This document shows positions 3,899 through 47,984 of a stretch of 47,984 nucleotides of DNA, one piece after another (position 1 is the first letter of the stretch; each line of letters begins with the position of its first letter). Source of the DNA: Gammaproteobacteria bacterium (GTDB taxonomy: Bacteria; Pseudomonadota; Gammaproteobacteria; UWMA-0217). A program made the translations under genes and the position numbers. The notes under the pieces are model-generated. The model worked only from the letters and a program-made list of their open reading frames with translations. It did not search any database and was not told the origin of the DNA. The DNA is taken from the NCBI GenBank assembly GCA_026981985.1, contig JALSHZ010000115.1, forward strand, positions 1-47,984, read 5' to 3'.

Positions 3899-6800
3899 AT
3901 GGCATATAGCTTTACGGAGAAGAAACGTATTCGTAAGGATTTTGGTAAACGCCCCACAGTTTTGGGCGTTCCGTTCCTTCTTTCCACGCAGTTGGACTCT
4001 TTTCGTCAGTTTTTGCAGACCGATGTTCCCCTGGACAAGCGCCGGGATAGCGGCTTGCATGGCGCTTTTAACTCGGTGTTTCCGATCGTCAGCTACTCTG
4101 GCTATGTGCAGCTGGAATATGTCGACTATCGCATGGGGCCTCCCATGTTTGATATCAATGAATGTCGTCTGCGCGGTGCGACTTATGCTGCGCCGTTACG
4201 GGTGACGTTGCGCCTCGTCATTTATGACAAGGATGCCCCGGCCGGCAAGAAGGTTGTCAAGGATGTGAAAGAGCAGGAGGTCTACATGGGTGAGATGCCT
4301 TTGATGACCGACACCGGTACTTTCATTATCAACGGCACCGAGCGGGTAATCGTCTCTCAGTTGCATCGTTCCCCGGGGGTCTTTTTTGACCACGACAAGG
4401 GCAAGACGCACTCCTCCGGTAAATTGTTGTTCAACGCGCGGGTTATTCCTTATCGTGGCTCATGGCTTGATTTCGAGTTCGATCCCAAGGATTGTGTGTT
4501 CGTGCGTATCGACCGTCGGCGGAAGCTGCCGGCCACCATTCTTCTGCGTGCGCTGGGCTACGAGAACGAAGAAATTCTGGCGACGTTCTACGACTTTCAG
4601 AAAGTCAATCTGAAGGGTCCTGATGACTACGAGATCGAAATTGATCCACAGGATCTGAAAGGCGAGCAGGCAGGCTTTGATATCAAGATCAAGGGCAAAA
4701 GGCTGGTAGAGGCTGGTAAGCGTATTACCGTGCGCCATATCAAGGCACTGGAAAAAGCCGGTATCAAATCATTCCCCGTGCCGCGGGAGTATCTTGCAAC
4801 CAAGGTGCTCGCGAAAGACGTTGTCGACACCGATACGGGGGAAATCGTCGCACACGCAAATGATGAGCTGACCGATGAGGTGCTGGACGCACTCGAAAAG
4901 GCGGGCATCAAGAGCGTAGAAGTATTGTTTATTAATGAGGTCGATCGCGGCCCGTATATTTCCCAGACATTGCAGATCGATCCGACCCGCTCCCAGCTGG
5001 AAGCACAGGTCGAGATCTATCGCATGATGCGTCCGGGCGAGCCGCCGACGAAGGAAGCAGCTCAACAGTTGTTCGAGAACCTCTTCTTCAATCCGGATCG
5101 CTACGATCTGTCCGATGTCGGGCGGATGAAGTTCAACCGCCGAATCGGTCGGGAAGATTCTACCGGGTCCGGTGTGCTGGACAAGGAAGACATCCTGGCG
5201 GTGCTGAAAGTGTTGATAGACATCCGCAACGGTAAGGGTGTTGTCGATGATATCGATCACCTCGGCAATCGTCGGGTGAGAAGTGTCGGTGAGATGGCGG
5301 AAAACCAGTTCCGTGTCGGCCTTGTCAGGGTCGAGCGCGCGGTCAAGGAACGCCTCTCGATGGCCGAGAGCGAGGGCTTGATGCCGCAGCAGTTGATCAA
5401 TGCCAAGCCGGTTGTTGCTGCGGTCAAGGAGTTCTTTGGTTCCAGCCAGCTCTCGCAGTTTATGGACCAGAACAACCCGTTGTCGGAAGTGACCCATAAA
5501 CGGCGTATTTCGGCACTTGGTCCGGGTGGTCTGACCCGTGAGCGAGCCGGTTTCGAGGTGCGTGACGTACACCCGACGCACTACGGTCGTGTCTGCCCGA
5601 TTGAGACACCGGAGGGGCCGAACATCGGTTTGATCAACTCCCTGGCGGTGTATGCGCGGACGAACGATTTTGGTTTTCTTGAAACGCCTTATCGCAAGGT
5701 AAAGGGCGGCAAGGTTACTGACGAGATCAGCTATCTGTCGGCCATCGAAGAAGCCAATCTGGTCATCGCACAGGCGAATGCATCGATAGACGAAAAAGGT
5801 AACCTGTCGGATGACTTGGTTTCCTGTCGTCACATGAATGAATTTACGCTCGTGCCGCCAGAGAAAGTCGACTATATGGATGTATCGCCGCGACAGATCG
5901 TCTCGGTTGCCGCATCACTTATCCCCTTTCTTGAGCATGACGATGCCAACCGTGCATTGATGGGATCGAACATGCAGCGCCAAGCTGTGCCGTGTCTGCG
6001 TGCTGAAAAGCCGCTGGTTGGTACCGGTATGGAGCGGGTGGTAGCAGTAGATTCCGGCTCCTCGGTTGTTGCCAAGCGTGGTGGTCGTGTCGACTCGGTT
6101 GATTCCGGCCGCATCGTCGTTCGGGTTAATGATGACGAGACCATTGCCGGTGAAGTGGGAGTCGATATCTATCGCACCCGCAAATACTCGCGCTCCAACC
6201 AGAATACCTGTATCAACCAGCGTCCGTTGGTCAATCCTGGCGACATCGTCGCGAGGGGCGATGTGCTGGCGGATGGCTCGTCGACGGATATGGGTGAGTT
6301 GGCGCTGGGGCAAAACATGCTGGTCGCATTCATGCCGTGGAACGGTTACAACTTCGAGGATTCCATACTCGTTTCCGAACGGGTGGTTCAGGAGGATCGG
6401 TTTACCACTATCCATATCGAGGAGCTGACCTGCGTCGCGCGTGACACCAAGCTGGGTGCTGAAGAGGTCACGGCCGATATTCCGAATGTCAATGAAAGCC
6501 TGCTAGCCAAGCTGGATGATTCCGGCATCGTCTATATTGGTGCCGAGGTGAAACCAGGTGATATTTTGGTTGGTAAAGTCACACCGAAAGGGGAAACCCA
6601 GCTGACGCCGGAAGAAAAACTGCTGCGTGCGATCTTTGGCGAGAAAGCCACCGACATCAAGGATACCTCGCTGCGCGTCGGTTCAGGAACGTATGGCACT
6701 GTGCTGGATGTTCGCGTCTACACACGCGACGGCGTGAAGAAAGACAACCGGGCGTTGCAGATCGAAGAAGCGGAAATGGACCGTATTCGCAATGACCTGC

Positions 6801-7975
6801 GCGACGAGATCCGCATCTACGAGGATGATATCTACGCCCGTGCCCGTGCCTTGTTGATGGGCAAAGTGGCGCAGAGTGGCCCTGACCTCAAGGCTGGCGA
6901 CAAGATCAGCAAGAGCTACCTCGACTCTCTCGAGCGTAAGCGCTGGTTTGAGATCGCCATGCAAGACGAGGAAATCAACGATCAGTTGGAGAATTTGCGC
7001 GGCATCATTGATAGCCAGGAAGATGTTTTTCAGGAGCGGATGAAGGAAGCGAAGGCGAAGCTTGATGCGGGTGATGATCTGGCGCCTGGTGTGCTGAAGA
7101 TGATCAAGGTTTACCTCGCGGTGAAGCGTCGTGTTCAGCCTGGTGACAAGATGGCGGGCCGGCACGGGAACAAGGGTGTTATTTCCCAGATCGTGCCAGT
7201 CGAGGACATGCCTTATTCCGAGGACGGCAGGCCCGTCGATATTGTTTTGAATCCTCTGGGTGTTCCGTCGCGTATGAACGTCGGTCAGGTTCTTGAGGTG
7301 CATTTGGGTTGGGCTGCCAAGGGGCTTGGTCTGAAAATCGGCAGAATGCTCGATGCTCAGGCGAAGATGGCTGAGTTACGGGGATTCATCTCCGAAATCT
7401 ATTCTACTGGCGGACGTCAGCAGGATATCAGCAGTCTCAGTGATGAAGAGGTGCTGGAGCTAGCGAAAAATCTGCGCGGTGGTGTGCCCATGGCGACACC
7501 TGTGTTCGATGGTGCGAGCGAGGAAGAGATCAAGTCGATGCTCAAGCTTGCCGATTTGCCAGAGACTGGCCAGGCCGTACTTTATGATGGCCGCACCGGT
7601 GAGGCATTCGATCGCCCGGTAACGGTTGGCTACATGCACATGCTGAAGCTGAATCACCTCGTTGATGACAAGATGCATGCGCGCTCGACCGGGCCATACA
7701 GTCTCGTCACGCAACAGCCATTGGGCGGCAAGGCGCAGTTTGGTGGCCAACGCTTTGGTGAGATGGAGGTCTGGGCGCTGGAAGCGTACGGCGCGGCTTA
7801 CACATTGCAGGAGATGCTCACCGTGAAATCGGATGATGTGGTTGGGCGTAACAAGATGTACAAGAACATCGTCGATGGAAATCATCGTATGGAAGCCAAT
7901 ATGCCTGAGTCCTTCAATGTGCTGATGAAAGAGATTCGCTCTCTTGGGCTCAATATTGAATTGGAACAGGACTAG
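3899..7975 (+). CDS. rpoB: DNA-directed RNA polymerase subunit beta
   Basis: The beta subunit forms one pincer of RNA polymerase and much of the active-site cleft. The 1358-residue product is close to the 1342 of E. coli and begins [18 protein letters not shown]. The rifampicin region around residues 515-540 reads [13 protein letters not shown], then [12 protein letters not shown], so the usual resistance positions (D516, H526, S531 in E. coli numbering) carry the sensitive residues. The C-terminal part has [25 protein letters not shown] chose the ATG at 3899, preceded by AGAGAAGAGG, over an in-frame TTG six bases earlier. rpoC follows after 18 bases. Confidence 0.98.
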
Positions 7976-35315: not shown

Positions 35316-36197
35316 ATGAGCAAGCGTAAAGGCATTATCCTCGCGGGTGGCTCCGGCACCCGTCTGTACCCCCTTACCATCTCGGTCAGCAAGCAGCTGA
35401 TGCCGGTCTACGACAAGCCGATGATCTACTATCCGCTGACCACGCTGATGCTGGCCGGTATCAAGGATATCTTGCTGATCACCACGCCCCAGGATGCGGC
35501 TGCGTTCGAGCATTTGCTGGGTGACGGTTCGCAGTGGGGAATCAATTTGCAGTATGCGGTTCAGCCCAGCCCGGATGGCCTGGCGCAGGCGTTTCTGATT
35601 GGTGAAGAATTCATTGGCGATAGCCCGGTCACGCTGATTCTGGGTGACAATATTTTTTATGGTGAAGGGTTTTCACTGCGACTTCAGGGCATTGGTCGCC
35701 GCGATACCGGCGCGACCGTGTTTGGCTACTATGTCCATGATCCGGAGCGCTACGGTGTGGTCGATTTCGATGAGAGCGGAACCGCGACCAGCATTGAGGA
35801 AAAACCCGAACATCCCAAGTCCAACTACGCTGTAACCGGGCTCTATTTCTATGACAATGACGTGGTCGACATTGCCCGTAATGTAAAGCCGTCGCTGCGG
35901 GGTGAACTGGAGATCACCGACGTCAACAAGGTCTACCTCGAACGTGGCGACCTGGCGGTGATGCGCATGAGTCGCGGTACTGCCTGGCTGGATACCGGCA
36001 CCACGCAGTCATTGCTCGATGCCGCCAATTTCATCCGCGTCATCGAGGAGCGGCAGGGATTGAAGATCGCCTGCCCGGAGGAGATTGCCTGGCGACAGGG
36101 TTTCATCGACGATGAGCAGCTGGAAAAGATCGCGCAGCCATTGAAGAAGAGCGGCTATGGTGCCTATCTGCTGGCGATGCTCGACAAGCGGTACTAG
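35316..36197 (+). CDS. rmlA: Glucose-1-phosphate thymidylyltransferase
   Basis: RmlA makes dTDP-glucose from glucose-1-phosphate and dTTP, the first step of dTDP-rhamnose synthesis. The 293-residue product has the nucleotidyltransferase start [16 protein letters not shown] (about 6-21), then [25 protein letters not shown] with the magnesium-binding Asp, IEEKP, and a C-terminal [13 protein letters not shown]. Length and motifs are those of the homotetrameric RmlA family. It begins the plus-strand sugar-nucleotide set; rmlD starts two bases after its stop. Confidence 0.97.
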
Positions 36198-36199
36198 TC

Positions 36200-37069
36200 A
36201 TGACAAGCATTCTCGTCACAGGAGCCAATGGGCAGTTGGGTCAGGAGCTGCAACGGGCGGTACCGCAAGGCGTGGCGCTGATCGCGCTGGGGCGGCAGGA
36301 GCTGGATATTGCCGACGCTTCGGCCGTTAGTCGCAAGGTCGCGGAAGTTCGACCGGACTGGATCATCAACGCTGCTGCCTATACAGCCGTTGACAAGGCG
36401 GAGTCGGATGAGGAAATGGCCATGGCCATCAATGTCACTGGCGCTGAAAATCTGGCCAGCGCCGCGCTTGAATTCGGTGCGCGACTGGCGCATGTGTCCA
36501 CTGACTTCGTTTTCGATGGCTGCAAGAGCCGTCCTTACCAGCCGGACGATGCGATGAACCCGGCTGGCGTTTATGGTGAGACGAAACAAAAGGGGGAGCA
36601 GGCGGTCAGAGAAGTGATGGGCGACGACGCATTGATCGTGCGGACCGCCTGGGTCTACTCCGCGCATGGCAACAATTTCGTCAAGACAATGCTGCGTTTG
36701 ATGAGCGAGCGCGAGGAACTCGGCGTTATCGAAGACCAGGTGGGTACGCCGACCTGGGCGGCCGAGCTGGCCAAGGTGCTCTATCTCGCCATCGACAAGT
36801 CACTGGCAGGCACCTACCACTGGACCGATACCGGGGTGGCGAGCTGGTATGATTTTGCTGTGGCGATTCATGAACTTGGGCGTTCGATGGGGTTGCTGCC
36901 GCGTGATGTGACAATCAACCCAATATCCACCGAAGCATATCCGACCCCGGCTGCGAGACCGGCGTACAGTGTGCTGAGCAAGGAAGCAATGCGTCAGGCT
37001 ACCGGCTACACCGGCATGCACTGGCGTGCGGCACTGAACAATATGATGAAGGAACTTGAAAATGGCTAA
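36200..37069 (+). CDS. rmlD: dTDP-4-dehydrorhamnose reductase
   Basis: RmlD reduces dTDP-4-keto-rhamnose to dTDP-L-rhamnose with NAD(P)H, the last step of the pathway. The 289-residue product is an SDR protein with the nucleotide-binding GANGQLGQEL near 8-17, AAYTAVDKAE (about 58-67), STDFVFDG and the catalytic YGETKQKGE (Y and K four apart). GTPTWA and the C-terminal RPAYSVLS are also family marks. It follows rmlA after two bases and overlaps rmlB by eight bases. Confidence 0.96.
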   Translation: MTSILVTGANGQLGQELQRAVPQGVALIALGRQELDIADASAVSRKVAEVRPDWIINAAAYTAVDKAESDEEMAMAINVTGAENLASAALEFGARLAHVSTDFVFDGCKSRPYQPDDAMNPAGVYGETKQKGEQAVREVMGDDALIVRTAWVYSAHGNNFVKTMLRLMSEREELGVIEDQVGTPTWAAELAKVLYLAIDKSLAGTYHWTDTGVASWYDFAVAIHELGRSMGLLPRDVTINPISTEAYPTPAARPAYSVLSKEAMRQATGYTGMHWRAALNNMMKELENG

Positions 37070-38177
37070 TCTATTAGTGACCGGCGCCGCCGGTTTTATC
37101 GGGGCGAATTTTGTTTACTACTGGCTTGATACCTATCCCGGCGACCGGGTGATTGGTTTGGACGCACTCACCTATGCCGGCAACCACGAAAGTATTCGCT
37201 CGGCGGAAAGCAATCCGGCCTTTCGCTTCGTGCATGGGGATATTCGTGATCAGGCGCTGATCGAAAAGCTGCTGCGCGAGGAAAAGATCGACACCATCGT
37301 CCATTTTGCCGCCGAAAGCCATGTCGATCGCTCCATCAGCGGCCCCGACGCTTTCATCGATACCAATATCGGCGGCACGCACTCGATGCTGAAAGCCGCG
37401 CGTGCCGTGTGGCTGGATGGGCCGGAGGGGCGTTTGCCTCACCGTTTTCACCACGTATCCACGGATGAAGTCTATGGCACGCTGGGCCCGAACGATCCGC
37501 CGTTCACCGAATCCACGCCCTATGCGCCAAACTCACCTTATTCTGCCAGTAAGGCGGCATCGGACCATCTGGTCAGGGCTTACCACCATACCTACGGTCT
37601 GGAAGTAACGACCAGCAACTGCTCCAACAATTACGGTCCCTATCAGTTTCCGGAAAAGCTGATTCCGCTGGTGCTGATCAACATTCTGCATGGCAAGGCG
37701 CTTCCCATCTACGGCGACGGCAAGCAGATACGCGACTGGCTGTACGTGGATGATCATGCCCGCGGCATCGACCTGATCATCAAGAAAGGCCGGCTCGGTG
37801 AGACTTACAACATCGGTGGTCACAACGAATGGACCAATATCGACATCGTCAACCTCATCTGCAAGTTGATGGATGAGCGCTTTGCTGCCGATCTGCAGAT
37901 GAAAGAAAAATACCCCGATGCGCCTGCTGCACGTGGGGAGAAGGCTAACTCGTTGATCACCTACGTCAAAGACCGCCCCGGTCACGATCAGCGTTATGCG
38001 ATCGATGCGGCGAAGACGACAGCAGAGCTGGCCTACAAGCCCGTGGAAAGTTTTGAAACCGGTATCGATAAGACAATATCCTGGTATCTCGACAATGAAG
38101 GCTGGTGGCAGCGAATCCTCGACGGCAGCTACCAGGAATGGATTGATCAGCAGTATGCCGATCGGAAAGCAAGTTGA
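37062..38177 (+). CDS. rmlB: dTDP-glucose 4,6-dehydratase
   Basis: RmlB converts dTDP-glucose to dTDP-4-keto-6-deoxyglucose, an intermediate for rhamnose and other deoxysugars. The 371-residue product has the Rossmann motif GAAGFIG (8-14), HFAAESHVDRSI, STDEVYG with the conserved Asp-Glu pair, the catalytic YSASKAASDH, and NNYGPYQFPEKLIPL, all typical of the family. The ATG at 37062 overlaps the rmlD end by eight bases, with AAGGAAC as ribosome binding site; an in-frame TTG two codons earlier is less likely. No rmlC lies next to it. Confidence 0.97.
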   Translation: MANLLVTGAAGFIGANFVYYWLDTYPGDRVIGLDALTYAGNHESIRSAESNPAFRFVHGDIRDQALIEKLLREEKIDTIVHFAAESHVDRSISGPDAFIDTNIGGTHSMLKAARAVWLDGPEGRLPHRFHHVSTDEVYGTLGPNDPPFTESTPYAPNSPYSASKAASDHLVRAYHHTYGLEVTTSNCSNNYGPYQFPEKLIPLVLINILHGKALPIYGDGKQIRDWLYVDDHARGIDLIIKKGRLGETYNIGGHNEWTNIDIVNLICKLMDERFAADLQMKEKYPDAPAARGEKANSLITYVKDRPGHDQRYAIDAAKTTAELAYKPVESFETGIDKTISWYLDNEGWWQRILDGSYQEWIDQQYADRKAS

Positions 38178-38257
38178 GATTGGTTTGTCGGCGGCCGATG
38201 CCGGCGAGTATCGTTAAATAGTAAGAAGGGTTAGTTAGTGTTTTTTTGGGAGACAAT

Positions 38258-39646
38258 ATGAAAGTTACAATTTACGGTTCCGGCTATGTGGGGTTGGTGA
38301 CAGGCGCCTGTCTGGCGGATGTGGGCAACAAGGTACTTTGTGTCGATGTCGACGAAGAGAAAATCGCCAAGCTAAAGCAGGGCATTCTGCCCATCTACGA
38401 GCCTGGGCTTGATGGCGTCGTGGAAGACGCGATGAAGCGCGGCAATCTTGATTTCACGACCGATATGGATCGGGCGGTCAATCACGGCGAAGTACAGTTC
38501 ATTGCCGTCGGTACACCGCCGGACGAGGATGGTTCTGCCGATCTGCAGTACGTGCTGGCGGTGGCTGAGACAATCGGTCAGCGGATGACATCGCCAAAGG
38601 TCGTGGTGGATAAGTCAACCGTCCCTGTGGGTACAGCCGACAAGGTAAGGGCGAAGATCTCGGCGTGTCTGAACGAGCGAGGTGAGAAGTTGGACTTCCA
38701 CGTCGTATCCAACCCGGAGTTCCTGAAAGAGGGCGCGGCGCTGGATGATTTCAAGCGGCCTGACAGAATCGTGGTTGGGGTCGATAGCGACCATGCTACC
38801 AGCGTGATGCGGGAACTGTATGCACCATTCAACCGCAATCACGACAAGCTGATCGTCATGGACATCCGCTCCGCCGAGCTGACGAAATATGCTGCCAACG
38901 CCATGTTGGCCACCAAGATCAGCTTCATGAATGAGATTTCCCAGCTGGCTGAAAAACTGGGCGCGGATATCGAGGCCGTTCGTATTGGCATCGGCTCCGA
39001 TCCACGGATTGGTTACCAGTTCATCTATCCGGGCTGTGGCTACGGTGGCTCCTGTTTCCCAAAAGATGTGAAGGCGCTGGAGCGTACCGCCAGGGAAGTT
39101 GGTTTTGACGCACAGTTGTTGTCGGCGGTTGAGGCGAGGAACAACGATCAGAAGCATATTCTGTATCGCAAGCTCGATCGTCACTTCGATGGTGACCTCA
39201 AGGGCAAGACCATTGCCGTCTGGGGGCTGGCCTTCAAACCGAACACCGATGATATGCGTGATGCGCCTTCCAGGGTGCTGATGGAGGCGCTGTGGGAATC
39301 TGGTGCGAGCGTCCGCGCCTATGACCCTGAGGCCATGAATGAGACCCGCCGAATCTATGGCGAGCGCGATGACCTGGCGTTGGTTGATGAGCCCTATGCA
39401 GCGCTCGATGGGGCTGATGCACTGGTCGTCTGCACCGAATGGAAGATTTTCTGGAGCCCGGATTTCGAAGGGATCAAGCGGCGCCTTAGCAGCCCCGTCA
39501 TTGTTGATGGCCGCAACATCTACGACCTCGATCGCATGCGCCAGCATGGTTTCTCCTACTATGCTGTCGGGCGTGAACATGTCGAAGGCGAGGCCTCGTC
39601 AGCGGACAATGGCGTCGTGCAGCTGAAGGTTGGCGGTGCGAGGTAG
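38258..39646 (+). CDS. ugd: UDP-glucose 6-dehydrogenase
   Basis: This enzyme oxidises UDP-glucose to UDP-glucuronate in two NAD-dependent steps. The 462-residue product has the N-terminal NAD-binding [10 protein letters not shown] (7-16) and the middle dimerisation domain (about 200-300). The catalytic cysteine is C266 in [13 protein letters not shown], and the C-terminal UDP-binding domain contains [17 protein letters not shown]. The related GDP-mannose dehydrogenase is less likely given this match, but the substrate is inferred from the family. ATG at 38258 follows GGGAGA. It is 80 bases after rmlB, so probably in the same unit, and converges with the SDR gene. Confidence 0.95.
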
Positions 39647-39664: not shown

Positions 39665-40528
39665 TTAGTCAGCCCGAACGAGATCTGCTCGTTCGGGCCT
39701 GAAAGGGCGCGGGGAGTAGTTGAAATCCCGTATGGCGTCACCGCTGTCGAAGACCAGATCCTGCTGGGTTCTGTCGGCCATCGAAGGCAGCAGGTGCCTG
39801 TATTGGGGGAGCAGCGCCGCCATTCGTATCGCGGTTCGGGCGACCGGTAGCGGTATATACACAGTACGCTGTTTGCGTCCCAATGCCTCAAATAGACGCG
39901 TGACCATTTCCCGGTAGCTGATCACATCCCCTCCACACAAGGCGTAAAGCGCGTTCTCTGTAGTCTGCTGTGTCAGGCACGCCAGCGCGGCATTGGCAAG
40001 GTCGGCGGCATGTACCGGGCTGCGTTTGCCGCATGCCTCCCCGAATAGCGGGAAGAAGCGGTAACGTTCGATGAAGCCTGCAATCACCGCAACATTCTTG
40101 TCCAATCCTGCACCATAGACCATTGTCGGGCGCAGAATCGTCCAGCCAATACCATGTTTCTCAGCGTAGTCTCGCAGCAGCGTCTCACCCAGACGTAGCA
40201 TTTCTGCCGTCTTGCGCTCTGCCGGGTCAGGAGAATCGATCTTGGAGACCGCGCTTGTCGAGCTGAAAGCGATGATTCTGCCGGGTGCAGAGTCGGATTC
40301 ATGAAGCATCTTGCCCAATACCCATATCGGCGCCAGGCTGATCAGCGTTTCATTGCCTGTAAACGTCAACGGGTTCCTGGAGATATCGTGCTGCATCCAG
40401 CTGATGCCCGGAGAGCCGGCCCCTTCATTCCTGCTCACCGCGGTGACCTGATACCCCTTGTCTGCCAGGGCGGGTAACAGGAAATGTCCGATCAAGCTGG
40501 TCGCGCCGAGTACAGTGACCACCGTCAT
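39665..40528 (-). CDS. Atypical SDR / NAD-dependent epimerase-like protein
   Basis: The 287-residue product has a Rossmann start TVVTVLGATSLIGHF with the glycine pattern GxxxxxG and later TILRPTMVYG, which marks an extended SDR fold. At the place of the catalytic YxxxK it reads PAERKTAE, so the Tyr is Pro and only the Lys is kept; it may bind a nucleotide without SDR chemistry. Similar proteins occur beside rhamnosyltransferase genes in surface polysaccharide loci, but I know no proven role. Its ATG overlaps the upstream GT2 stop in ATGA (40525-40528), so it is the last gene of the minus-strand operon. Confidence 0.85.
   Translation of the reverse strand: MTVVTVLGATSLIGHFLLPALADKGYQVTAVSRNEGAGSPGISWMQHDISRNPLTFTGNETLISLAPIWVLGKMLHESDSAPGRIIAFSSTSAVSKIDSPDPAERKTAEMLRLGETLLRDYAEKHGIGWTILRPTMVYGAGLDKNVAVIAGFIERYRFFPLFGEACGKRSPVHAADLANAALACLTQQTTENALYALCGGDVISYREMVTRLFEALGRKQRTVYIPLPVARTAIRMAALLPQYRHLLPSMADRTQQDLVFDSGDAIRDFNYSPRPFRPERADLVRAD
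39672..39698. terminator. Hairpin between convergent ugd and the SDR gene
   Basis: GCCCGAACGAG (39672-39682) pairs perfectly with CTCGTTCGGGC (39688-39698), loop ATCTG. It lies in the last codons of the SDR gene and just past the ugd stop. There is no T run on either side, so it would stop transcription only weakly or protect 3' ends. Confidence 0.45.
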
Positions 40529-41406
40529 CTGCGAAGACTCTGCAGTAACCATACTGGCGTCAGCAGAAAGAAACGGGCCCAAATTGCAGCGTAAACCCCA
40601 TACATCAGAATGCGCGGATATTGATCGGTGTAGAACTTCCGATAGTAGCGCGCCATACCCTTGTGCTTGTGCCATTCAACCCGCACCCGGCGATTATGGC
40701 TGCTGCCTCCTTTGGCATGGGTAATGGACACATGCGGCAAGAACATCACCTTCCAGCCTTTCAACCAGAACCGCTTGCACCAGTCCAGATCTTCACAATG
40801 TAGGAAGTAACCCTCATCCAGTGGTCCTACGTCTTCGAGCGCCTCGCGCCGCACAAGCATGCAAGCACCGGAGATGGCGTCGACCTCGACCGGGCCAGCA
40901 GGCAGCGGTTTACCCACCTTGTTGATGCCCTTTTCGCGGTTGCCTACCAGTGTTTTGAGTGCCGCGAGAGGTGTGGGTTCGTCGCGGCGGCACGCGCGCT
41001 GCTCGGAGCCGTCTTGGTTGAGAATCAGTGGGCCGGCCATTCCGGTTTGTGGATCGGATGACATGAATGTCAGCAGTTTTCTTACTGCATCGCCGGAAAT
41101 CAATGTGTCGGGGTTGATAAATAGTGCATACGATGCCGAAAGAAAATGTATTGCTCGATTGTTTCCAGCGGAAAAGCCAATGTTTGCAGCATTTCTTACA
41201 AGAACGACCCGTGCGTTTTGCTTAGCAATTGACTGGAGTTCCTCCAGGCTCCCATCGTTTGATCCATTATCGGCAACAATGATCTGGTTGATGTCGTCAA
41301 GGGCGATGGCCGAGTTGATGCAGTCGAGTATCTTGTGTCCACCGTTGAAGTTGACGATTACAATATCAAGGCACTGGTCGCTACGATTTTGATTTGTCGG
41401 TTTCAC
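40525..41406 (-). CDS. GT2 family glycosyltransferase (rhamnosyltransferase-like)
   Basis: The 293-residue product is a GT-A fold GT2 enzyme: DIVIVNFNGG (14-23), VADNGSNDGSL, NIGFSAGNNRAI, the Asp motif INPDT (97-101), DAISGACMLVRR and the acceptor-side FLHCEDLDWCKR (201-212). The pattern is that of the WbbL-type rhamnosyltransferases that add one sugar to a lipid carrier or chain. The rmlABD genes nearby make rhamnose a plausible donor, but this is inferred. It uses a GTG start at 41406 with GAGG ahead. Near the C-terminus there is a hydrophobic segment (about 270-289), possibly membrane-attached. Confidence 0.88.
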   Translation of the reverse strand: MKPTNQNRSDQCLDIVIVNFNGGHKILDCINSAIALDDINQIIVADNGSNDGSLEELQSIAKQNARVVLVRNAANIGFSAGNNRAIHFLSASYALFINPDTLISGDAVRKLLTFMSSDPQTGMAGPLILNQDGSEQRACRRDEPTPLAALKTLVGNREKGINKVGKPLPAGPVEVDAISGACMLVRREALEDVGPLDEGYFLHCEDLDWCKRFWLKGWKVMFLPHVSITHAKGGSSHNRRVRVEWHKHKGMARYYRKFYTDQYPRILMYGVYAAIWARFFLLTPVWLLQSLRR

Positions 41407-41432
41407 GTATGGACTGCCTCAGGGTGCCATGC

Positions 41433-42530
41433 CTAACGGTTTGGATTTTTAGACTGCTTTCGCCAGTGGTCAAGGCTTGGTTTTTCGACAAAGTGCCACG
41501 ACAGCATGGCCAGAAAGAGTGTTAATGGGAATGCAGATAAAAAAAGCGTAGTGGTGGGTATGTCTGGTCTGAGAAATACGAGAGACTGCTGAATCGGAAA
41601 TGCGTAGATATATAGCCCATAAGAGTAGTCCCCGAGTTGATTGAATCTTCGGATGAAGCCTGTGGGAATATAAGACAGATAAAGCAGCAAGTAGGGGAGT
41701 GCCAATGAATAAATGAAAAATGATATGTTTCCCGGAGAAGTTGATGAAATAATGACCAGTGCTAGCAGTATAGAAAATAGATGTTTGGATAAGGGGATAT
41801 TTTGACGGTAGATGTAGTATGCCCCTCCCATGAAAAACATGGCAGCAAATCTGATCATATGCGGGAGGTGAGGTCCGGTGATGAGATGGGTGCTGTGGTT
41901 AGCGAAATACACCACCGTAAACAAGACTGCGGTACTCGTGATTGAAACCTTCAGGAATTGGGGGTGAAGTCTTTTGAAAGTCAAAAGCGAAATTATCCCC
42001 AAGAATGTGAGTGCTGCGTACATCGCGACTTCCCATGGAAGTGTCCAGAGTGATCCATTGACTGAGTTTTTTACCGGTAAGTGCTCGAATGTCCCAGGAA
42101 GAGAAAACTGTATTGGCTCAACGACGAGGAGAGAGTTGTGGATAAAGAAGTTGTGGGTGGTGGGGGATTTTAGGTATTCCACCAGTGGTAGTGATGTGAA
42201 CAAGGGACCGATGATATACGCAGAGAAGGCAACAGCAACAATGAGGGCAGGGTAAATGCGAACGATTCTGGAAGTAATAAACGACTTTAGTTCTGATCGT
42301 TTGAGTAGGCTAGCACTAACTAGAAAGCCGCTGGTGACAAAGAATATATCCACTGCAAGGTGGCCAAAAGTAAATCCGGCGAGTACGCTAAGGGGTTCTG
42401 CTGGATTGCCCGTGAGTGGGTAGCTATGGCTTAGTATAACGAGTAATGCCGCAATAAATCGTATGAGGTTGAAGTTGTTGTCGCGCCCTCGCGTAAATGA
42501 GGATAGCCTTGGTATAGATCGGAGTAGCAT
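41433..42530 (-). CDS. Acyltransferase 3 family membrane protein
   Basis: The 365-residue product is an integral membrane acyltransferase of the OafA/Acyl_transf_3 type with about ten hydrophobic segments. The first carries NNFNLIRFIAALLVILSHSYP, broken here as IRFIAALLV and LSHSYP, with the likely catalytic His. Further marks are FFVTSGFLVSASLL, TSRIVRIYPAL and the end YGLYIYAFPIQQ. Such enzymes add acetyl or other acyl groups to O-antigen or capsule sugars. The C-terminus has no added SGNH esterase domain. It starts one base after the upstream stop (TGA-A-ATG). AT content is clearly above that of the ribosomal part. Confidence 0.9.
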   Translation of the reverse strand: MLLRSIPRLSSFTRGRDNNFNLIRFIAALLVILSHSYPLTGNPAEPLSVLAGFTFGHLAVDIFFVTSGFLVSASLLKRSELKSFITSRIVRIYPALIVAVAFSAYIIGPLFTSLPLVEYLKSPTTHNFFIHNSLLVVEPIQFSLPGTFEHLPVKNSVNGSLWTLPWEVAMYAALTFLGIISLLTFKRLHPQFLKVSITSTAVLFTVVYFANHSTHLITGPHLPHMIRFAAMFFMGGAYYIYRQNIPLSKHLFSILLALVIISSTSPGNISFFIYSLALPYLLLYLSYIPTGFIRRFNQLGDYSYGLYIYAFPIQQSLVFLRPDIPTTTLFLSAFPLTLFLAMLSWHFVEKPSLDHWRKQSKNPNR

Positions 42531-42531
42531 T

Positions 42532-45426
42532 TCAGGTCGTTGCAGGACTGTTGAGTTCGCCGTTTTCCATCCGCTCTTTCTGAGAAGAATGTTCGTTGTG
42601 GTGTTTGACTACAGCGTGCTTGTAGGCGTTATCGAGAGCGATCTGGCGTCGAACTCTGTCGCCAATGTCATGGGGTGTGTGGAATAGTGAGGTCGTCTTT
42701 TGAACCCATTTGAATAGACCTAGAGCTGCATATTTTTTCCATAGATCCCAGTCTTCTAAATGATCCATTGATTCGTCAAAGCCGCCGTGCTGTTCGAACA
42801 ACTTGCTCCGAAACAGAATGGACTGAATGGGAATGTAGTTGTGGTGTTTTAATATGTCGAGGCTGAACTCTTGATAGAAAAGACTCGGAGTGCTGTGTGA
42901 AACCTCGTGATAGAAGCCCGTGTTGCCGTCTTTCAGGGTGACCGTTTCAACATCCCAGGCAAGGGAGTAGGCGGCGTTGATGTTTGGTGTCGTGTGAATC
43001 GTGTTGTACAGGGTTTCGATATGATCTGGAAACAACAAGTCATCTTCGTCGAGCAGCAGTAGAAACTCGCCTTTTGCTTTTGACATGCCATGATTTCCGG
43101 CAGCTGAGCGCCCGACTTTGGCAAGAGGGTGGTATGCTAATTTAGCGTTGGGGCGATATTTTTCCGTGACTTCCTCTATAACCTCCTTTTTGGTCGTGCC
43201 ACCGTCTTCTACGATGATGTGCTCAATATTTGGGTACGTTTGATTCATCACTGATGCGATGCACTCTTTCAAGTGGCGTGCATCCGGGCCATGTGTTCTG
43301 GTAATCACGCTGACGAGGGGTAGAGCTCCTTCCAGTGGTTGCAGCTTGAAAAATGCGCCCCCTCTTCTCATTTCATAGTCGAAAGCTCTGAAAGGGAAAA
43401 AGGTATGGCCTCGTGGAGGCCGGCTTCTGAGGAAATATGGGGTATTTCTTGCGAGTGCTAGGATATTTTTGGCAACCATCTTTCGACTACCGGAAAAGCC
43501 TCCACCGCGCACCAGCAATGCGAACTGCAAGGGGAGGATCGCGGCGATATCCGACCAGTTTCCGTAACGCAGGCGCAGGTATGCGTTTGCAAGGGTGGAA
43601 CCGCTGAATTGAATGGGTTTTATTTCCGAAGCAGTCGAATAGGAGTAATGCCAGGCAACGGCGTTGGGAACGTAACGGAGCGAGTAGCCGTGAGCGCGTA
43701 GCCGGTAAGACAGTTCCACGTCTTCGCCATACATGAATATCCGTGGTTCGTAGCCGCCGACGTGTTCATAGGCTGTGCGCCGTATTAGAATGCATGCATG
43801 TGAAGACCAATTAACGTCAAGAGTAACAGGGTCGAGATATTTTGGGTGTTCATAAGGCTTTTGGCGTAGCTCCCACGAGGCTGTGTGAGTGCTGTCGGAC
43901 AAGGCGCGTGCTATCACTTTTTTCAGGGCATCTGGTTCAAGCGTGAGATCAACGTTCGTAATGAGTATGAACGGGTTTTTCCCGGCTGAGATCGCCGTAT
44001 GATGCCCCATTCCAAAGCCAAGATTTGCCTGCCGGATAATGTTGATGCTGGCAAATAGTTTGGCTTGGGATTTCTGGAACGCTTTAAGCAATTCAGGGGT
44101 GTTGTCGCTTGAGTTGTTGTCGACAAATGTGATATCCAGTTTGTTCGCTGGATAGTCAAGTGACAGTAGGCTTTCGAGAAATGCTGGTAACCACTTGGCG
44201 CTGTTGTGCGTGACAATGCTGATGTCGATGGCTGGTAGATCCGATTCTTCAGTAGTATTGGTGAGCCACTGGATATGCTCAGGACTCAATAACACACCCC
44301 CTCGTTGGCTGACGAAGGTGTTGATTGCCGGGCCATTTTGTCTTGAATACGGAAGGTGTCGAAGCACCTGCGTTAATCGTTGGATTCGTGCGTTGATCCA
44401 GAATAGCGGGGGGGCCAGGGGGGTTCCCTTGATGTTCGACTTCAGCCAGAAAGTTGACGCATGTCTGAGGTTGTTGATTCTCGTAAAAAATCTTATGGCT
44501 GGTGTAATGCTGGCTTGTAGGTCCTGGAGGTTCTGTTGAGTGTGGTTGAGTTCTTCTGATGTGCCGTTGAGCATACCGTTGAGCTGAGTAATTTCTTTGT
44601 CACGAGTTTCCAGCTGCTGTTTTAGCCAGCTGATGTCGTGATCTCTGGACTCGACTTGTTGTTTTAGCCAACTGATACCGTCTTCTCTGTCTCGTGTGTC
44701 AATCTGTGCTTTCTCCAGCTCTGCTTCGTACTGGATGGCGCTACCGAGGCGGGAAAACATGGTTTGGGTCACTATTACCTCTTGATCCTTTAGAGAAAAC
44801 AGCTCTATGGCTGCGTCTGGCAGGTCTTTGCCGATGCCGAGGGCGCCGAGGCCACTTGAGTGTGTGAATTCGAACGATGGATATGTGGTTCGAAGTTGCT
44901 GCCACAGTTTCCAAACCCCAAAGCCCCGTTCACGAACCTGAATGTCATGGAGCAGTACGATGCCGTGTTTGCTGAGCTTGGGGAGCCAGGTGTCAAAGTC
45001 ATGCTTGACGGCCTCGTAGGTGTGGAGGCCATCAATGTGCAAGATATCAATACTGGCATCATCGACTTGGGTCAGTGCATCGTCAAACGTTGAGCGGAGC
45101 AGCGTCGAAAAGTCTTGGTAGTTCTGATTGTTGTACTCAAGGACTGCACTGTAAATGGTATCGCCATAGAATCCCGCGTGCTCGTCTCCGCGCCAAGTAT
45201 CTATTGCAATACAGCGACTCGAGATGCCGCTTTCCTCTACAGCTTGGCAAAATGAAAAATATGAGTTTCCAGTGTGTGTTCCCAGCTCGACAATGCTAGA
45301 AGGCTTTAGCTTATTGACTAGCCAGAAAGCAAAGGGAATATGTCCGACCCAGGAGTAGGGGGGAACCAATCTTTTGGGCTGGCTGAGAATGATGTGAGGA
45401 GGGGTGGTGTGAAATATGGTATTCAT
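42532..45426 (-). CDS. Methyltransferase / coiled-coil / double GT2 glycosyltransferase fusion
   Basis: The 964-residue product has four parts. Residues about 30-220 are a class I SAM methyltransferase of the Methyltransf_24 kind (VELGTHTGNS at 46-55, HIDGLHTYEAV at 130-140, LLHD at 158-161). Residues about 230-305 are a charged helical, likely coiled-coil stretch with a 14-residue repeat (ISWLKQQ twice at 251 and 265). A first GT2 domain follows (about 400-640; SIVTHNSA, TNVDL as DxD, YGEDVELSYRLR), then a second (about 703-920; SVITRTHG, LDEDDLLFP as DxD, LEDWDLWKKY). It sits between wzt and the acyltransferase gene. Functions are inferred: chain assembly plus sugar methylation, perhaps chain ending. 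Substrates are unknown. Confidence 0.88.
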   Translation of the reverse strand: MNTIFHTTPPHIILSQPKRLVPPYSWVGHIPFAFWLVNKLKPSSIVELGTHTGNSYFSFCQAVEESGISSRCIAIDTWRGDEHAGFYGDTIYSAVLEYNNQNYQDFSTLLRSTFDDALTQVDDASIDILHIDGLHTYEAVKHDFDTWLPKLSKHGIVLLHDIQVRERGFGVWKLWQQLRTTYPSFEFTHSSGLGALGIGKDLPDAAIELFSLKDQEVIVTQTMFSRLGSAIQYEAELEKAQIDTRDREDGISWLKQQVESRDHDISWLKQQLETRDKEITQLNGMLNGTSEELNHTQQNLQDLQASITPAIRFFTRINNLRHASTFWLKSNIKGTPLAPPLFWINARIQRLTQVLRHLPYSRQNGPAINTFVSQRGGVLLSPEHIQWLTNTTEESDLPAIDISIVTHNSAKWLPAFLESLLSLDYPANKLDITFVDNNSSDNTPELLKAFQKSQAKLFASINIIRQANLGFGMGHHTAISAGKNPFILITNVDLTLEPDALKKVIARALSDSTHTASWELRQKPYEHPKYLDPVTLDVNWSSHACILIRRTAYEHVGGYEPRIFMYGEDVELSYRLRAHGYSLRYVPNAVAWHYSYSTASEIKPIQFSGSTLANAYLRLRYGNWSDIAAILPLQFALLVRGGGFSGSRKMVAKNILALARNTPYFLRSRPPRGHTFFPFRAFDYEMRRGGAFFKLQPLEGALPLVSVITRTHGPDARHLKECIASVMNQTYPNIEHIIVEDGGTTKKEVIEEVTEKYRPNAKLAYHPLAKVGRSAAGNHGMSKAKGEFLLLLDEDDLLFPDHIETLYNTIHTTPNINAAYSLAWDVETVTLKDGNTGFYHEVSHSTPSLFYQEFSLDILKHHNYIPIQSILFRSKLFEQHGGFDESMDHLEDWDLWKKYAALGLFKWVQKTTSLFHTPHDIGDRVRRQIALDNAYKHAVVKHHNEHSSQKERMENGELNSPATT
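44593..44676 (-). repeat. Two 42-bp repeats coding a 14-residue coiled-coil unit
   Basis: Residues 251-264 and 265-278 of the fusion protein repeat as ISWLKQQVESRDHD and ISWLKQQLETRDKE. The preceding TRDREDG and following ITQLNG look like worn copies. The DNA is still close between copies, which points to recent duplication or easy expansion. Fourteen residues equal two heptads, fitting an elongated coiled coil whose length could vary. Confidence 0.8.
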
Positions 45427-45450
45427 GACAATGTGACCCTGCTGCCGGCT

Positions 45451-46803
45451 TCAGAGGGTTGTAAGAGATATTGACTGCATTGGAATCCCTACCAATCCAG
45501 TGGAAAGGCTGGTGGCATGAGATTCGAAAACGATTGCATCGTGTATCCAATGGTGCTGTATGTGGTCTTCCTGTGTTCCTTCAGCAATTGCTACGGAGAC
45601 ACTATAGGGGCCTGAAGGCAATATTGGCATCGAAAATGTAAATTTTGTGAGCAAGGTATCTCCTTCTTTGCAGGCTATCGGGGTCTGTTGACAGGTAAGG
45701 TAGGTGTTGTCCCCAAAAAGAGTCTGACCCAGTTTGTCTTTGACTACGAATCCGACAATCGGGTTGTCTATTGGCTTGTTCAATGCAGAAACGATTTCTA
45801 TCGACACGGATTCTCCGCCAACAGCCCAGGTCAGGGAGGTGTCACTGGCGTCTGTGACTCGTACGTTGGTAATCGTCGCCAGCCCAGTTCCGAAGGACTT
45901 GGCCGGTTCATGAAACCGAAAGATTTCGAGATCGTTCCGCAGGTTGCTGTGTTGAATAAAAGCTGCACGTTGATCTGTCACCGCCTCAATGCACCTCCCG
46001 CTTTCAGGCGACTCTTCCTTCTTCTTGCTCTGGCATGATTGCTTTGTGCCGTCAATTTCCTGCGAGACTTCGTACACGCCTTCGAGATACTGCTCGGTCA
46101 CGTCTTTTGACTCTCCAGATGCTTTGATTCTTCCCTTATCGAGCCAGATGGCTTTAGTACAAAAATTGACAACGGAGCTGGTGTCGTGGCTGACGAACAG
46201 AATGGTGCCGTGTTTTTGGAATTGTCTTAGAAAGCGCATGCATTTCTGGGTAAAGAACACGTCGCCAACGGCAAGTGCTTCGTCAATGACGAGTATGTCG
46301 GCATCGACATGTGCAATGACGGCAAATGCTAATCGGACGAACATGCCGCTCGAATAGGTTTTCACTGGCTGCTCGATAAAGGTGCCTATATCCGCGAAGC
46401 CTACGATGCTATCGTATTTCTGACTGATTTCTTCACGGCTAAGCCCGAGTAGTGCAGCATACATGTAGATGTTGTCATGGCCCGAGAACTCGGGGTTGAA
46501 TCCGGCTCCCAACTCCAGTAGCGCGGCCACACGGCCATTGACCTTGATACTGCCAGATGTAGGTGTAAGTGTTTCGCAGATGATCTGCAATAGCGTGGAC
46601 TTCCCAGCGCCGTTTCTGCCGATGATTCCGACGGTTTCGCCTTCGAGAATGTTGAAGCTAATGTCTTGGAGCGCCCAGAATTCATCGAATAGCTGCCTCT
46701 TGCCCCGTACAAGTCCTTGGAGCAGGCGATGATGGGGTTTGTGATAGATCTCAAAGCATTTACTTATATTTTGTAACGATATGGCGGGAGACTCAGAGGA
46801 CAT
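45451..46803 (-). CDS. wzt: Polysaccharide ABC transporter ATP-binding protein with C-terminal carbohydrate-binding domain
   Basis: Wzt powers export of a finished glycan on its lipid carrier across the inner membrane. The 450-residue product has a nucleotide-binding domain (about 1-240) with Walker A GRNGAGKST (62-70), the signature YSSGM (150-154), Walker B ILVIDE (170-175) and the switch SHD (205-207). After a charged linker come about 150 residues with GDNTYL-type beta-strand sequence, the Wzt C-terminal fold that in O8/O9a systems reads the terminal chain modification. The ATG at 46803 overlaps the wzm end by 11 bases; an in-frame upstream extension would lie wholly in wzm and is not family-like. 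Confidence 0.93.
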   Translation of the reverse strand: MSSESPAISLQNISKCFEIYHKPHHRLLQGLVRGKRQLFDEFWALQDISFNILEGETVGIIGRNGAGKSTLLQIICETLTPTSGSIKVNGRVAALLELGAGFNPEFSGHDNIYMYAALLGLSREEISQKYDSIVGFADIGTFIEQPVKTYSSGMFVRLAFAVIAHVDADILVIDEALAVGDVFFTQKCMRFLRQFQKHGTILFVSHDTSSVVNFCTKAIWLDKGRIKASGESKDVTEQYLEGVYEVSQEIDGTKQSCQSKKKEESPESGRCIEAVTDQRAAFIQHSNLRNDLEIFRFHEPAKSFGTGLATITNVRVTDASDTSLTWAVGGESVSIEIVSALNKPIDNPIVGFVVKDKLGQTLFGDNTYLTCQQTPIACKEGDTLLTKFTFSMPILPSGPYSVSVAIAEGTQEDHIQHHWIHDAIVFESHATSLSTGLVGIPMQSISLTTL

Positions 46804-47581
46804 CGGCAAAACCTCTTCTCGTCTTCTGGAACCATGCGAAGCCCCCCCAAGCGACTGCAATGCTGACCAGAAGGGTCACCAGTAGGCTCGGCCAGTCCGG
46901 CATCTCCCCCCACATCATGACATTCCGCGCTTGCTCGATAATAAATGTCAGAGGGTTGAGGTATAGATAGATCTGGTATTTCTCGGGTATTGCGGAGATT
47001 GGGTAGAAAATTGGCGACATAAATAGCAGGAGAGTGCTGACAATGCCGGTTACTTGACTGATATCACGGAGGTAGACGCCTAGCGATGCCAGAAACCAAG
47101 AGAGCCCAAGGCAGTAGAAAATCAAGGGTAGCAATACGGCTGGCAGGAAAATGATGGTGGCATGAATGGAGTGGTTGACAGTAACAAAAAAGATCAACCA
47201 TACCAGTAGACTAACCAGTGTGTGGAACAGCGTCGATAGCAATGTAACCCAAGAAAGCGTTTCTAAAGGAAAAACGACCTTTTTGACGTAACTGGGGTTA
47301 TTTAGAATTTGATATGGTGCCCGAATAATGCACTCTGAGAGGAGGCCATGGATTATTAGACCTGCGAATAGTGCCAAGGCAAACTCGGTCTTGTTTTCAG
47401 ATCCTGTGCCCCATCGGGTCTTGAAAACGAAGCTGAAAACAAAGGTATATACCGCGAGCAGGATCAAAGGATTGATAAATGACCAGAGCAAGCCGAATAC
47501 CGATCCTTTGTAGCGTCCGGCAATTTCCCGACGTACCAGCTGGCCTATCAGTTCGGAATGCCGTGTGAAACTGCGGAGCAT
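46793..47581 (-). CDS. wzm: Polysaccharide ABC transporter permease
   Basis: Wzm is the ABC-2 type membrane partner of Wzt. The 262-residue product shows about six hydrophobic helices after an amphipathic N-terminal region (LVRREIAGRYKGSVFGLLW), a typical start for the family, and FMSPIFYPISAIPEK near the fifth helix, with LNPLTFIIEQARNV as the following signature. I take the ATG at 47581 because the length and N-terminus then fit Wzm proteins. An in-frame extension up to 47695 exists and has no family support, and the ribosome binding site at the chosen ATG is weak. It is the first gene of the six-gene minus-strand operon. Confidence 0.92.
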   Translation of the reverse strand: MLRSFTRHSELIGQLVRREIAGRYKGSVFGLLWSFINPLILLAVYTFVFSFVFKTRWGTGSENKTEFALALFAGLIIHGLLSECIIRAPYQILNNPSYVKKVVFPLETLSWVTLLSTLFHTLVSLLVWLIFFVTVNHSIHATIIFLPAVLLPLIFYCLGLSWFLASLGVYLRDISQVTGIVSTLLLFMSPIFYPISAIPEKYQIYLYLNPLTFIIEQARNVMMWGEMPDWPSLLVTLLVSIAVAWGGFAWFQKTRRGFADVL

Positions 47582-47984
47582 TTCGATGGCTGTGATGGGG
47601 AAGCGGGTGCTAGCGTTCAAGAATCCGATTCTCTTCGCAATGGGGGCAAGGACATCTGTGGGCAGGCCCCACTTCGGGTGATGGCAAAGTGCCATGGCCT
47701 CGCCTGTTGATCCATAAGCGCCCTAGGTTACCATTGGACACCGTGCTTTTCCATTGTGTTCTCGACGCGGGGTTGTCCCGGATCCGGATAAGTGATCGTC
47801 TGAAGGTGAGCAAAGATGGCTCCATTGAATGGATCATGTAACTTCTGAAGTATGTTGCAGGGAGCGAAGTCTACGGTAAGCAGATCTAAGGGATCAAATG
47901 ATCCGGTACAAGGATTTCAATGAGGGGCGTTAAGTATTCATGCGTCTGGATGGAAGGTACGATGTGGTTTTGTGCCGTCCCTAG
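47582..47984. other. Gene-free end region with likely wzm promoter
   Basis: About 400 bases hold no convincing gene. It should contain the promoter of the minus-strand operon, but I find no clear -35/-10 pair and no ops/JUMPstart element (GGCGGTAG) on that strand. An inverted repeat GGATCA-AA-TGATCC lies at 47891-47904. A short plus-strand frame opens with ATG at 47930 behind AAGGAT and is still open at the window end after 18 codons; it could be the start of a divergent gene, but the evidence is weak. Confidence 0.5.

Follow-up and report, generated by a model that had tools for sequence, protein, structure and literature searches.

A methyltransferase-coil-glycosyltransferase protein beside Wzm and Wzt: a proposed writer and reader of methyl caps in ABC-dependent glycan export

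Cap-dependent export of glycans by ABC transporters is a principle known from Escherichia coli that has been worked out in few systems so far. A further locus of this kind, in which the arrangement of the parts appears to be new, lies at the right end of a 47,984-nucleotide stretch of DNA (the window, bases 1-47984 of contig C115, GenBank JALSHZ010000115.1) from the 3.35 Mb, 149-contig genome of a gammaproteobacterium (assembly GCA_026981985.1, lineage UWMA-0217). The locus has wzm and wzt, which encode the permease and the ATPase of the transporter, and a gene for a protein of 964 amino acids (aa) in which a methyltransferase, a coil and two glycosyltransferase (GT2) domains are joined. It is likely that this protein writes a methyl cap which the C-terminal domain of Wzt reads, giving the exported glycan a built-in quality control.

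The closest described systems each share some of these parts. In E. coli O8, equivalent to Klebsiella O5, the order wzm-wzt-WbdD resembles that of the window, with wzm, wzt, a methyltransferase with a coil and then a glycosyltransferase. The O8 enzyme methylates sugar hydroxyls directly without a kinase, as is predicted for the window, whereas that of O9a adds a phosphate and then the methyl group (PMC3482155); the O8 Wzt also shares the N/A/W of the reader pocket. Unlike in the window, the O8 methyltransferase is of another family and a separate 425-aa protein, and its Wzt has His at pocket position 350 where the window has Ala. In Aquifex aeolicus WzmWzt the cap-binding fold, which in the window is a model, and the methyl pocket are likewise shared but H350 is again Ala in the window; the Aquifex glycan is rhamnose-rich with methylated caps, and the word methyltransferase is absent from the main text of that paper (PMC9445017).

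Three further proteins can be likened to that of the window by their described layout, not by sequence. WsaE of the Geobacillus stearothermophilus S-layer glycan has an N-terminal methyltransferase and two rhamnosyltransferase domains in one protein, the same methyltransferase-GT-GT order that stands beside wzm and wzt here, and its 2-O-methyl cap is predicted to be read by Wzt; in contrast to the window, the available text mentions no coil and an extra length factor is possibly required (PMC2943079). ORF6 of Klebsiella pneumoniae O7 is a single polypeptide with a methyltransferase, a coil and, at its C-terminus, two GT2 modules, but a kinase and a carbohydrate-binding-like domain lie between the methyltransferase and the coil and the cap is a methyl phosphate (PMC11231755), whilst in the window protein that place holds only a gap at residues 205-214. 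The E. coli O101/O162 protein, encoded in an ABC-exported O-antigen locus, has an N-terminal methyltransferase and a C-terminal coil, and the intact gene is a prerequisite for O-methylation; unlike in the window no GT modules are described in the available text, and chains are made without it (PMC13168486). Compared with these published systems the window differs in its family of methyltransferase, in lacking a kinase and in having everything, a coil included, in a single protein.

The transporter genes are both intact, with positions 45451-47581 running exactly from the stop of wzt to the start of wzm and the start of wzt overlapping the stop of wzm. The ABC-2 permease and the ATPase share one operon, as in this exporter family. 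This agrees with the initial annotation, made from the letters alone, which had named an ABC-type export pair. Wzm is 53-58% identical to the Wzm of five loci found in other genomes (L013, L014, L044, L050, L051), and the top PDB sequence matches of Wzt are 8dku (1.5e-76), by its title A. aeolicus WzmWzt, and 7k2t (3.9e-76). The estimate of about 150 Wzt residues beyond the ATPase was a fair one, as about 205 follow, some 160 of which (291-450) make a folded domain. An AlphaFold model built from 12 sequences has a mean predicted local distance difference test score (pLDDT) of 76.8, with residues 1-35 below 50, and the first 17 rows of a Foldseek search with it are all Wzt chains. Alignment of the C-terminal domain with known Wzt structures, the check that the initial annotation had suggested, gave the Wzt_C beta-sandwich and no different fold: VIA-align matches it to the O9a domain 2r5o (Z 15.7, root-mean-square deviation 2.5 over 144 residues), to Aquifex 8dky with bound 3-O-methyl-mannose (Z 14.4, 2.4 over 127) and, at Z 13.7, to the Kdo reader 5hno, whilst the best-ranked row that is not a Wzt has Z 9.4. 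As modelled the domain has the family fold, yet because a methyl-phosphate reader scores best and a Kdo reader scores 13.7, the fold by itself would not identify the cap.

In the pocket of the Aquifex domain L300, T346, A348 and W362 enclose the methyl group whilst N313 and H350 contact the sugar, H350 at its C2 hydroxyl; the domain does not bind mannose that is unmodified, and with W362L the binding of lipopolysaccharide is essentially lost (PMC9445017). Profile alignments to the Aquifex and O9a proteins place V353, S403, A405, W419, N366 and A407 of the window Wzt at the equivalent positions, the methyl pocket being retained as Val, Ser, Ala and Trp (V/S/A/W, against M/A/A/W in O8 and L/S/G/R in O9a). 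Written as a signature of Aquifex positions 299, 300, 313, 346, 348, 350 and 362, the window reads FVNSAAW, Aquifex ILNTAHW, E. coli O8 (strain IAI1) YMNAAHW and O9a ILNSGSR. Since the Ala and Trp are shared with O8 and Aquifex where O9a has Gly and Arg, the window pocket resembles those of direct-methyl readers, minus the C2-contacting His.

The gene downstream of wzt does begin with a methyltransferase domain as initially annotated, although the coil and two GT2 domains that follow, likely a length ruler and a polymerase, had been missed. Methyltransf_24 covers residues 46-162 of the 964-aa protein (1e-27), and in the methyltransferase model 249 of 342 residues have a pLDDT of at least 90. 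Its nearest folds are COMT-like O-methyltransferases and MeT1 (6g80), a mycobacterial sugar 1-O-methyltransferase (PMC9883506), which is also the only PDB match of the domain profile at E 0.01 (6g7d, 3e-6); E47, G49, G53, D132, H135, H160 and D161 are invariant in all 30 aligned rows, two of which are near-duplicates. The O8 enzyme matches 9 of 48 methyltransferases at E 1e-3 (most strongly those of L054, L066, L055 and L065, with five weaker) and that of the window is absent from them, placing it outside the O8 WbdD family. The methyltransferase ends near residue 205 and a single helix is modelled at 214-330 (mean pLDDT 89.2), leaving no room for a kinase between them, and no kinase was matched by Pfam in the protein. 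On a home-made heptad measure the register is identical in all six windows along the helix, the first being weak (0.28). A catalytic domain followed by an extended coil is the layout of WbdD-type terminators, here with a predicted helix of 117 residues. Tuning of this coil by tandem repeats was considered and rejected, as there is a 14-residue pattern in the protein but Tandem Repeats Finder reports no array there.

The pairing of methyltransferase and reader domain extends beyond the window. Methyltransferases were found by home-made profiles whose seeds came from this genome, A3, L050 and L051, and were counted beside Wzt with the C domain (the best 84 of 112 non-window matches by E-value) and beside Wzt without it (49 short-frame ATPase matches out of 50 that were chosen by eye among the matches listed, one at a contig edge being dropped). 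On the same strand and no more than 200 bp away, a methyltransferase gene accompanies 37 of the 84 but only 2 of the 49 (Fisher 3e-7), or 31 against 0 with own-genome seeds alone. The two domain-less cases are L191, a close member of the window family, and L200, a distant relative. With one locus taken per family the median p is 2e-5 (46 vs 38 families), and in 12 genomes that have both kinds of Wzt a methyltransferase stands beside the domain-bearing one in seven and beside the domain-less one in none. An earlier motif check, run separately from the matches counted here, had flagged 47 of 115 methyltransferase matches as lacking the pattern, most of which were judged genuine by eye. The initial proposal that the chain is capped by methylation and the cap read by Wzt thus gains indirect support from the kept Aquifex-type pocket and from methyltransferases being common beside domain-bearing Wzt and rare otherwise.

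The type of pocket tends to go with a methyltransferase that has a coil. A methyltransferase with a coil adjoins 12 of 24 Wzt with a W+N pocket and 3 of 60 others (42-residue windows, 95% threshold; p 7e-6), with p up to 0.005 over nine settings, or 2e-5 to 0.04 over the same number of settings when only loci with an adjacent methyltransferase are compared. As a predictor of any adjacent methyltransferase the Trp pocket was dropped (14/24 vs 23/60, p 0.14).

It also appears that writer and reader vary together. Among 48 pairs methyltransferase similarity tracks the C domain once the ATPase domain is accounted for (partial r 0.457; 0/2000 permutations reached it), the reverse test giving -0.017 and a cruder same-family version 0.215 (1/2000). 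These permutations, as those on the pocket, ignore shared descent, and the full sets include ten named loci that were selected by their methyltransferase; near-duplicates were left out (L011 from A1, A3 and the 48-pair test, L034 from the last). When Wzm is added as a covariate, for the 43 of 48 loci with a Wzm match, the linear partial Mantel test gives 0.38 to 0.55 with 0/1000 in each of six sets, and the rank form 0.18 in the full set (0/1000; 7/1000 after mild dereplication). By these sequence comparisons the methyltransferase tracks the reader more closely than it does the ATPase domain, with a rank version that is not robust.

When methyltransferases with no family partner are set aside (leaving 43 and 37 of the 48 at different cut-offs), several families go with a pocket signature of their own. 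That of the window has F-x-N-x-A-A-W in 10 of 12, another has ITNSGAR in four of five and MTNSGAR in the fifth, the group matched by the O8 enzyme has W at 362 together with either H or T at 350 in 4/4, and a further family has FGNRGTY in 4/4, whilst one family of three is mixed (FFNDAAW, IGTRSDY, LGQRGAY). With descent ignored, mutual information at positions 346, 348, 350 and 362 is reached by 0 of 2000 shuffles at the two stricter cut-offs (37 loci); at the loosest, position 350 is reached by 10/2000 and position 313 by 193/2000. It may be, though we put this forward as somewhat less than probable, that throughout the bacteria cap writer and reader co-evolve as interchangeable pairs, with several methyltransferase families filling the slot beside Wzt and most having their own pocket signature. 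No paper on such a pairing was found in a search of the open-access literature. To this the window contributes a pairing of the Methyltransf_24 type with F-V-N-S-A-A-W, which unites writer, putative ruler and polymerase in a single polypeptide.

When one genome per species was scanned, 27 loci related to the window methyltransferase were found. In the sequence examined, 12 of these carry wzm together with a Wzt that has the C domain (two near-duplicate pairs included) and 10 have no transporter. At E 1e-30 the family is present in 7 of 370 genomes of the class. In L013 and L014 (Vreelandella, Halomonas) the same parts are split between genes: one that adjoins wzt encodes a methyltransferase of 331 or 312 aa with a coil-like tail, and another encodes two GT2 domains with 44-45% identity to the C-terminal half of the 964-aa protein. 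Near the N-terminus of the two-GT2 proteins (L013 3341-5554, L014 2926-5106) there are a short coil-like stretch, seen by eye, and an SxSWxVTxPLR motif; coils might let the separate halves pair. Other relatives scanned have different glycosyltransferases after the coil. In L047 (G248 C1, ~5360-7315) a related methyltransferase is followed by a coil of near-identical repeats of ~42 residues (six heptads, by eye), and since it is built of such repeats its length could change by recombination, making a tunable ruler possible. L049 has tandem methyltransferases of the window family at 120-899 and 948-1733, the second of which has lost the IDGxH motif and so may serve as a partner without catalysis of its own. 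In L019 and L034 there is no evident coil after the methyltransferase, and the pocket Trp of Wzt is replaced by Leu in both.

The genes, their domains and predicted folds, the conserved pocket and active-site residues and the pairing at population level were observed here, and a scheme can be proposed around them. The two GT2 domains would extend a lipid-linked chain, possibly containing rhamnose, with a coiled-coil rod keeping the N-terminal methyltransferase at a distance from them. Once the chain is long enough to reach, the methyltransferase would cap a hydroxyl of the terminal sugar and growth would stop. The C domain of Wzt would then take the methylated sugar into its hydrophobic pocket (V353, S403, A405, W419), passing only finished, capped chains to Wzm. 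In its logic the scheme agrees with WbdD of O8 and O9a, WsaE, Klebsiella O7 ORF6 and E. coli O101. For catalysis, the cap, the ruler, the sugar and the dependence of export on the cap, this is what we infer.

A number of observations weigh against this scheme. In E. coli O101, isolates whose methyltransferase-coil gene is disrupted go on producing O-polysaccharide, minus the O-methyl group and one of two repeat types (PMC13168486), so that export there need not strictly depend on the cap, and such dependence is not universal. Five of the 27 related loci pair the methyltransferase with a Wzt without the reader domain (L012, L015, L021, L022 and L032, the last ~7 kb away). Close members lie within 200 bp of only 1 of 84 Wzt with the reader domain (L044) and 1 of 49 without (L191), so that the window family taken by itself has no tie to that domain, and the specific tie that was looked for was not found; the L045 member lies 839 bp from its Wzt, outside the limit, and an iterated-profile count of 3/84 vs 2/49 also caught the distant relatives L084, L086 and L200. 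The pockets with W+N are not significantly richer in adjacent methyltransferases, the Aquifex H350 is replaced by Ala, and the best structural match is a methyl-phosphate reader, with the Kdo reader at Z 13.7. The rank test is not significant in the class-only set (103/1000), in its dereplicated forms (135 and 645) or in the strictly dereplicated full set (514), and is also positive for the ATPase domain in the full set (0.159, 4/1000); linked inheritance accounts for part of the methyltransferase-Wzt pairing. The O101 result and the recount of close family members lowered our confidence in cap-controlled export and raised that in a methyltransferase which modifies sugars inside the chain, or marks chains but has no control over their export, with Wzt reading another terminal feature such as an acyl group. 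For this speak the same loci with a domain-less Wzt, the adjoining acyltransferase gene and the O-polysaccharide of the disrupted O101 isolates, but the methyl-holding residues are kept in the Wzt pocket and the methyltransferase-coil layout is that of known terminators, and we consider it unlikely.

That the cap is instead a methyl phosphate made with the help of an unlinked kinase, as in O9a or Klebsiella O7, would fit with both known systems of this type using a methyltransferase and a coil (PMC3482155, PMC11231755) and with the O9a domain being the best structural match. It is nevertheless very improbable, given a protein with neither a Pfam kinase match nor space for one and a pocket with Trp and Ala where O9a has Arg and Gly. 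A rather doubtful possibility, and one compatible with a methyl cap, is that the coil merely tethers the methyltransferase to the polymerase and measures no length: coil length varies widely and some relatives appear by eye to be without one (L019, L034), but the coil parts terminator from polymerase as in O9, O12 and O7, and the ruler is called established for O9 and O12 (PMC11231755). The methyl cap written by the 964-aa protein and read by Wzt is the reading that we prefer.

The coordinates of the locus and its neighbours are given in Table 1.

Table 1. Features of the glycan export locus and of neighbouring genes in the window.
Feature	Position	Strand	Basis
wzm, ABC-2 type permease, 262 aa	46793..47581	-	ATG 47581, frame open from 47695; Pfam ABC2_membrane 9.3e-28
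wzt, ATPase with C-terminal cap-binding domain, 450 aa	45451..46803	-	ATG 46803; ABC_tran 3.9e-21; Wzt_C PF14524 1.6e-36
Wzt cap-binding domain, residues 291-450	45454..45933	-	AlphaFold model; structure matches; profile alignments to Aquifex, O9a
964-aa methyltransferase-coil-GT2-GT2 protein, proposed terminator and polymerase	42532..45426	-	Pfam Methyltransf_24, two Glycos_transf_2 stretches
Class I O-methyltransferase domain, residues 1-210	44797..45426	-	Model; MeT1 (6g80), COMT-like folds; invariant residues
Predicted single helix, 117 residues, one heptad register, residues 214-330	44437..44787	-	Model; home-made heptad scan
First GT2 domain, residues ~395-690	43357..44244	-	Pfam; 46% identity to first GT2 of L013, L014
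Second GT2 domain, residues ~700-945	42592..43329	-	Pfam; chondroitin synthase 2z87 7.7e-12; 42-44% identity to second GT2 of L013, L014
Membrane acyltransferase (Acyl_transf_3), possible glycan O-acylation	41433..42530	-	Pfam 1.9e-25; relative present in L016
GT2, possibly adapter rhamnosyltransferase	40525..41406	-	Pfam; TIGR01556 1.7e-17, far under its cut-off
NAD-dependent epimerase/dehydratase-like gene	39665..40675	-	Pfam Epimerase 5.2e-14; listed start overlaps GT2
UDP-glucose 6-dehydrogenase-like gene	38246..39646	+	TIGR03026 above cut-off
rmlA, rmlD, rmlB, dTDP-L-rhamnose genes	35316..38177	+	NCBIfam rmlA, rmlD, dTDP_gluc_dehyt above cut-offs

As the rml genes adjoin the locus, rhamnose can be guessed as the chain sugar; matches to rmlC sit on other contigs of the same genome. 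With the transporter genes at the right end of the window, any gene upstream of wzm would fall outside it. The initial annotation had found no wzx, wzy or wzz, which stands for contig C115, where a whole-genome search gave no Polysacc_synt, Wzy_C or Wzz match, but does not hold for the genome, which has 8, 7 and 4 such matches elsewhere (7, 6 and 3 above the Pfam cut-off); these wzx-, wzy- and wzz-like genes also count against the proposed scheme. A second Wzt-like ATPase match in the same genome (G000 C98:4063-4740) has 31% identity and one internal TGA.

The G+C content is 0.50 in 40-48 kb of the window (40000-47984) and 0.52-0.57 in its other 4-kb blocks, a drop from about 0.55 which suggests an exchanged cassette. 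The same stretch is the part that differs in the congener G001, where rmlD, rmlB and ugd are 79-92% identical and the transporter cassette is in the opposite orientation. The ATPase domain of the G001 Wzt is 56% identical, whilst its C domain has no significant BLAST similarity to that of the window and is still Wzt_C (1.3e-13); its methyltransferase is of another family and is followed by a coil and a Glyco_trans_1_4 domain. That the methyltransferase and the C domain both differ, beside a similar ATPase domain, speaks for the proposed scheme. As the whole cassette differs and is reversed, this is not a swap of reader and writer alone, which speaks against it. In G003, of the same family, a Trp-pocket Wzt is followed by a methyltransferase of only distant similarity (25% over 151 residues), which has a coil and a pair of GT2 domains after it.

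On this reading a single protein, encoded next to a matched reader, would combine a terminator that works without a kinase and belongs to another methyltransferase family, a coil and a polymerase of two domains. L013 and L014, with the same parts as two proteins, are a natural comparison for the coupling of termination, length control and polymerisation. Most deserving of further attention is the pairing of methyltransferase family with pocket signature. If writers and readers do co-evolve in this way, a genome would allow one to predict whether the end cap is a direct methyl or a methyl phosphate, and perhaps also its sugar or position, so that glycan end caps could be read from sequence and reader-writer pairs selected for testing.
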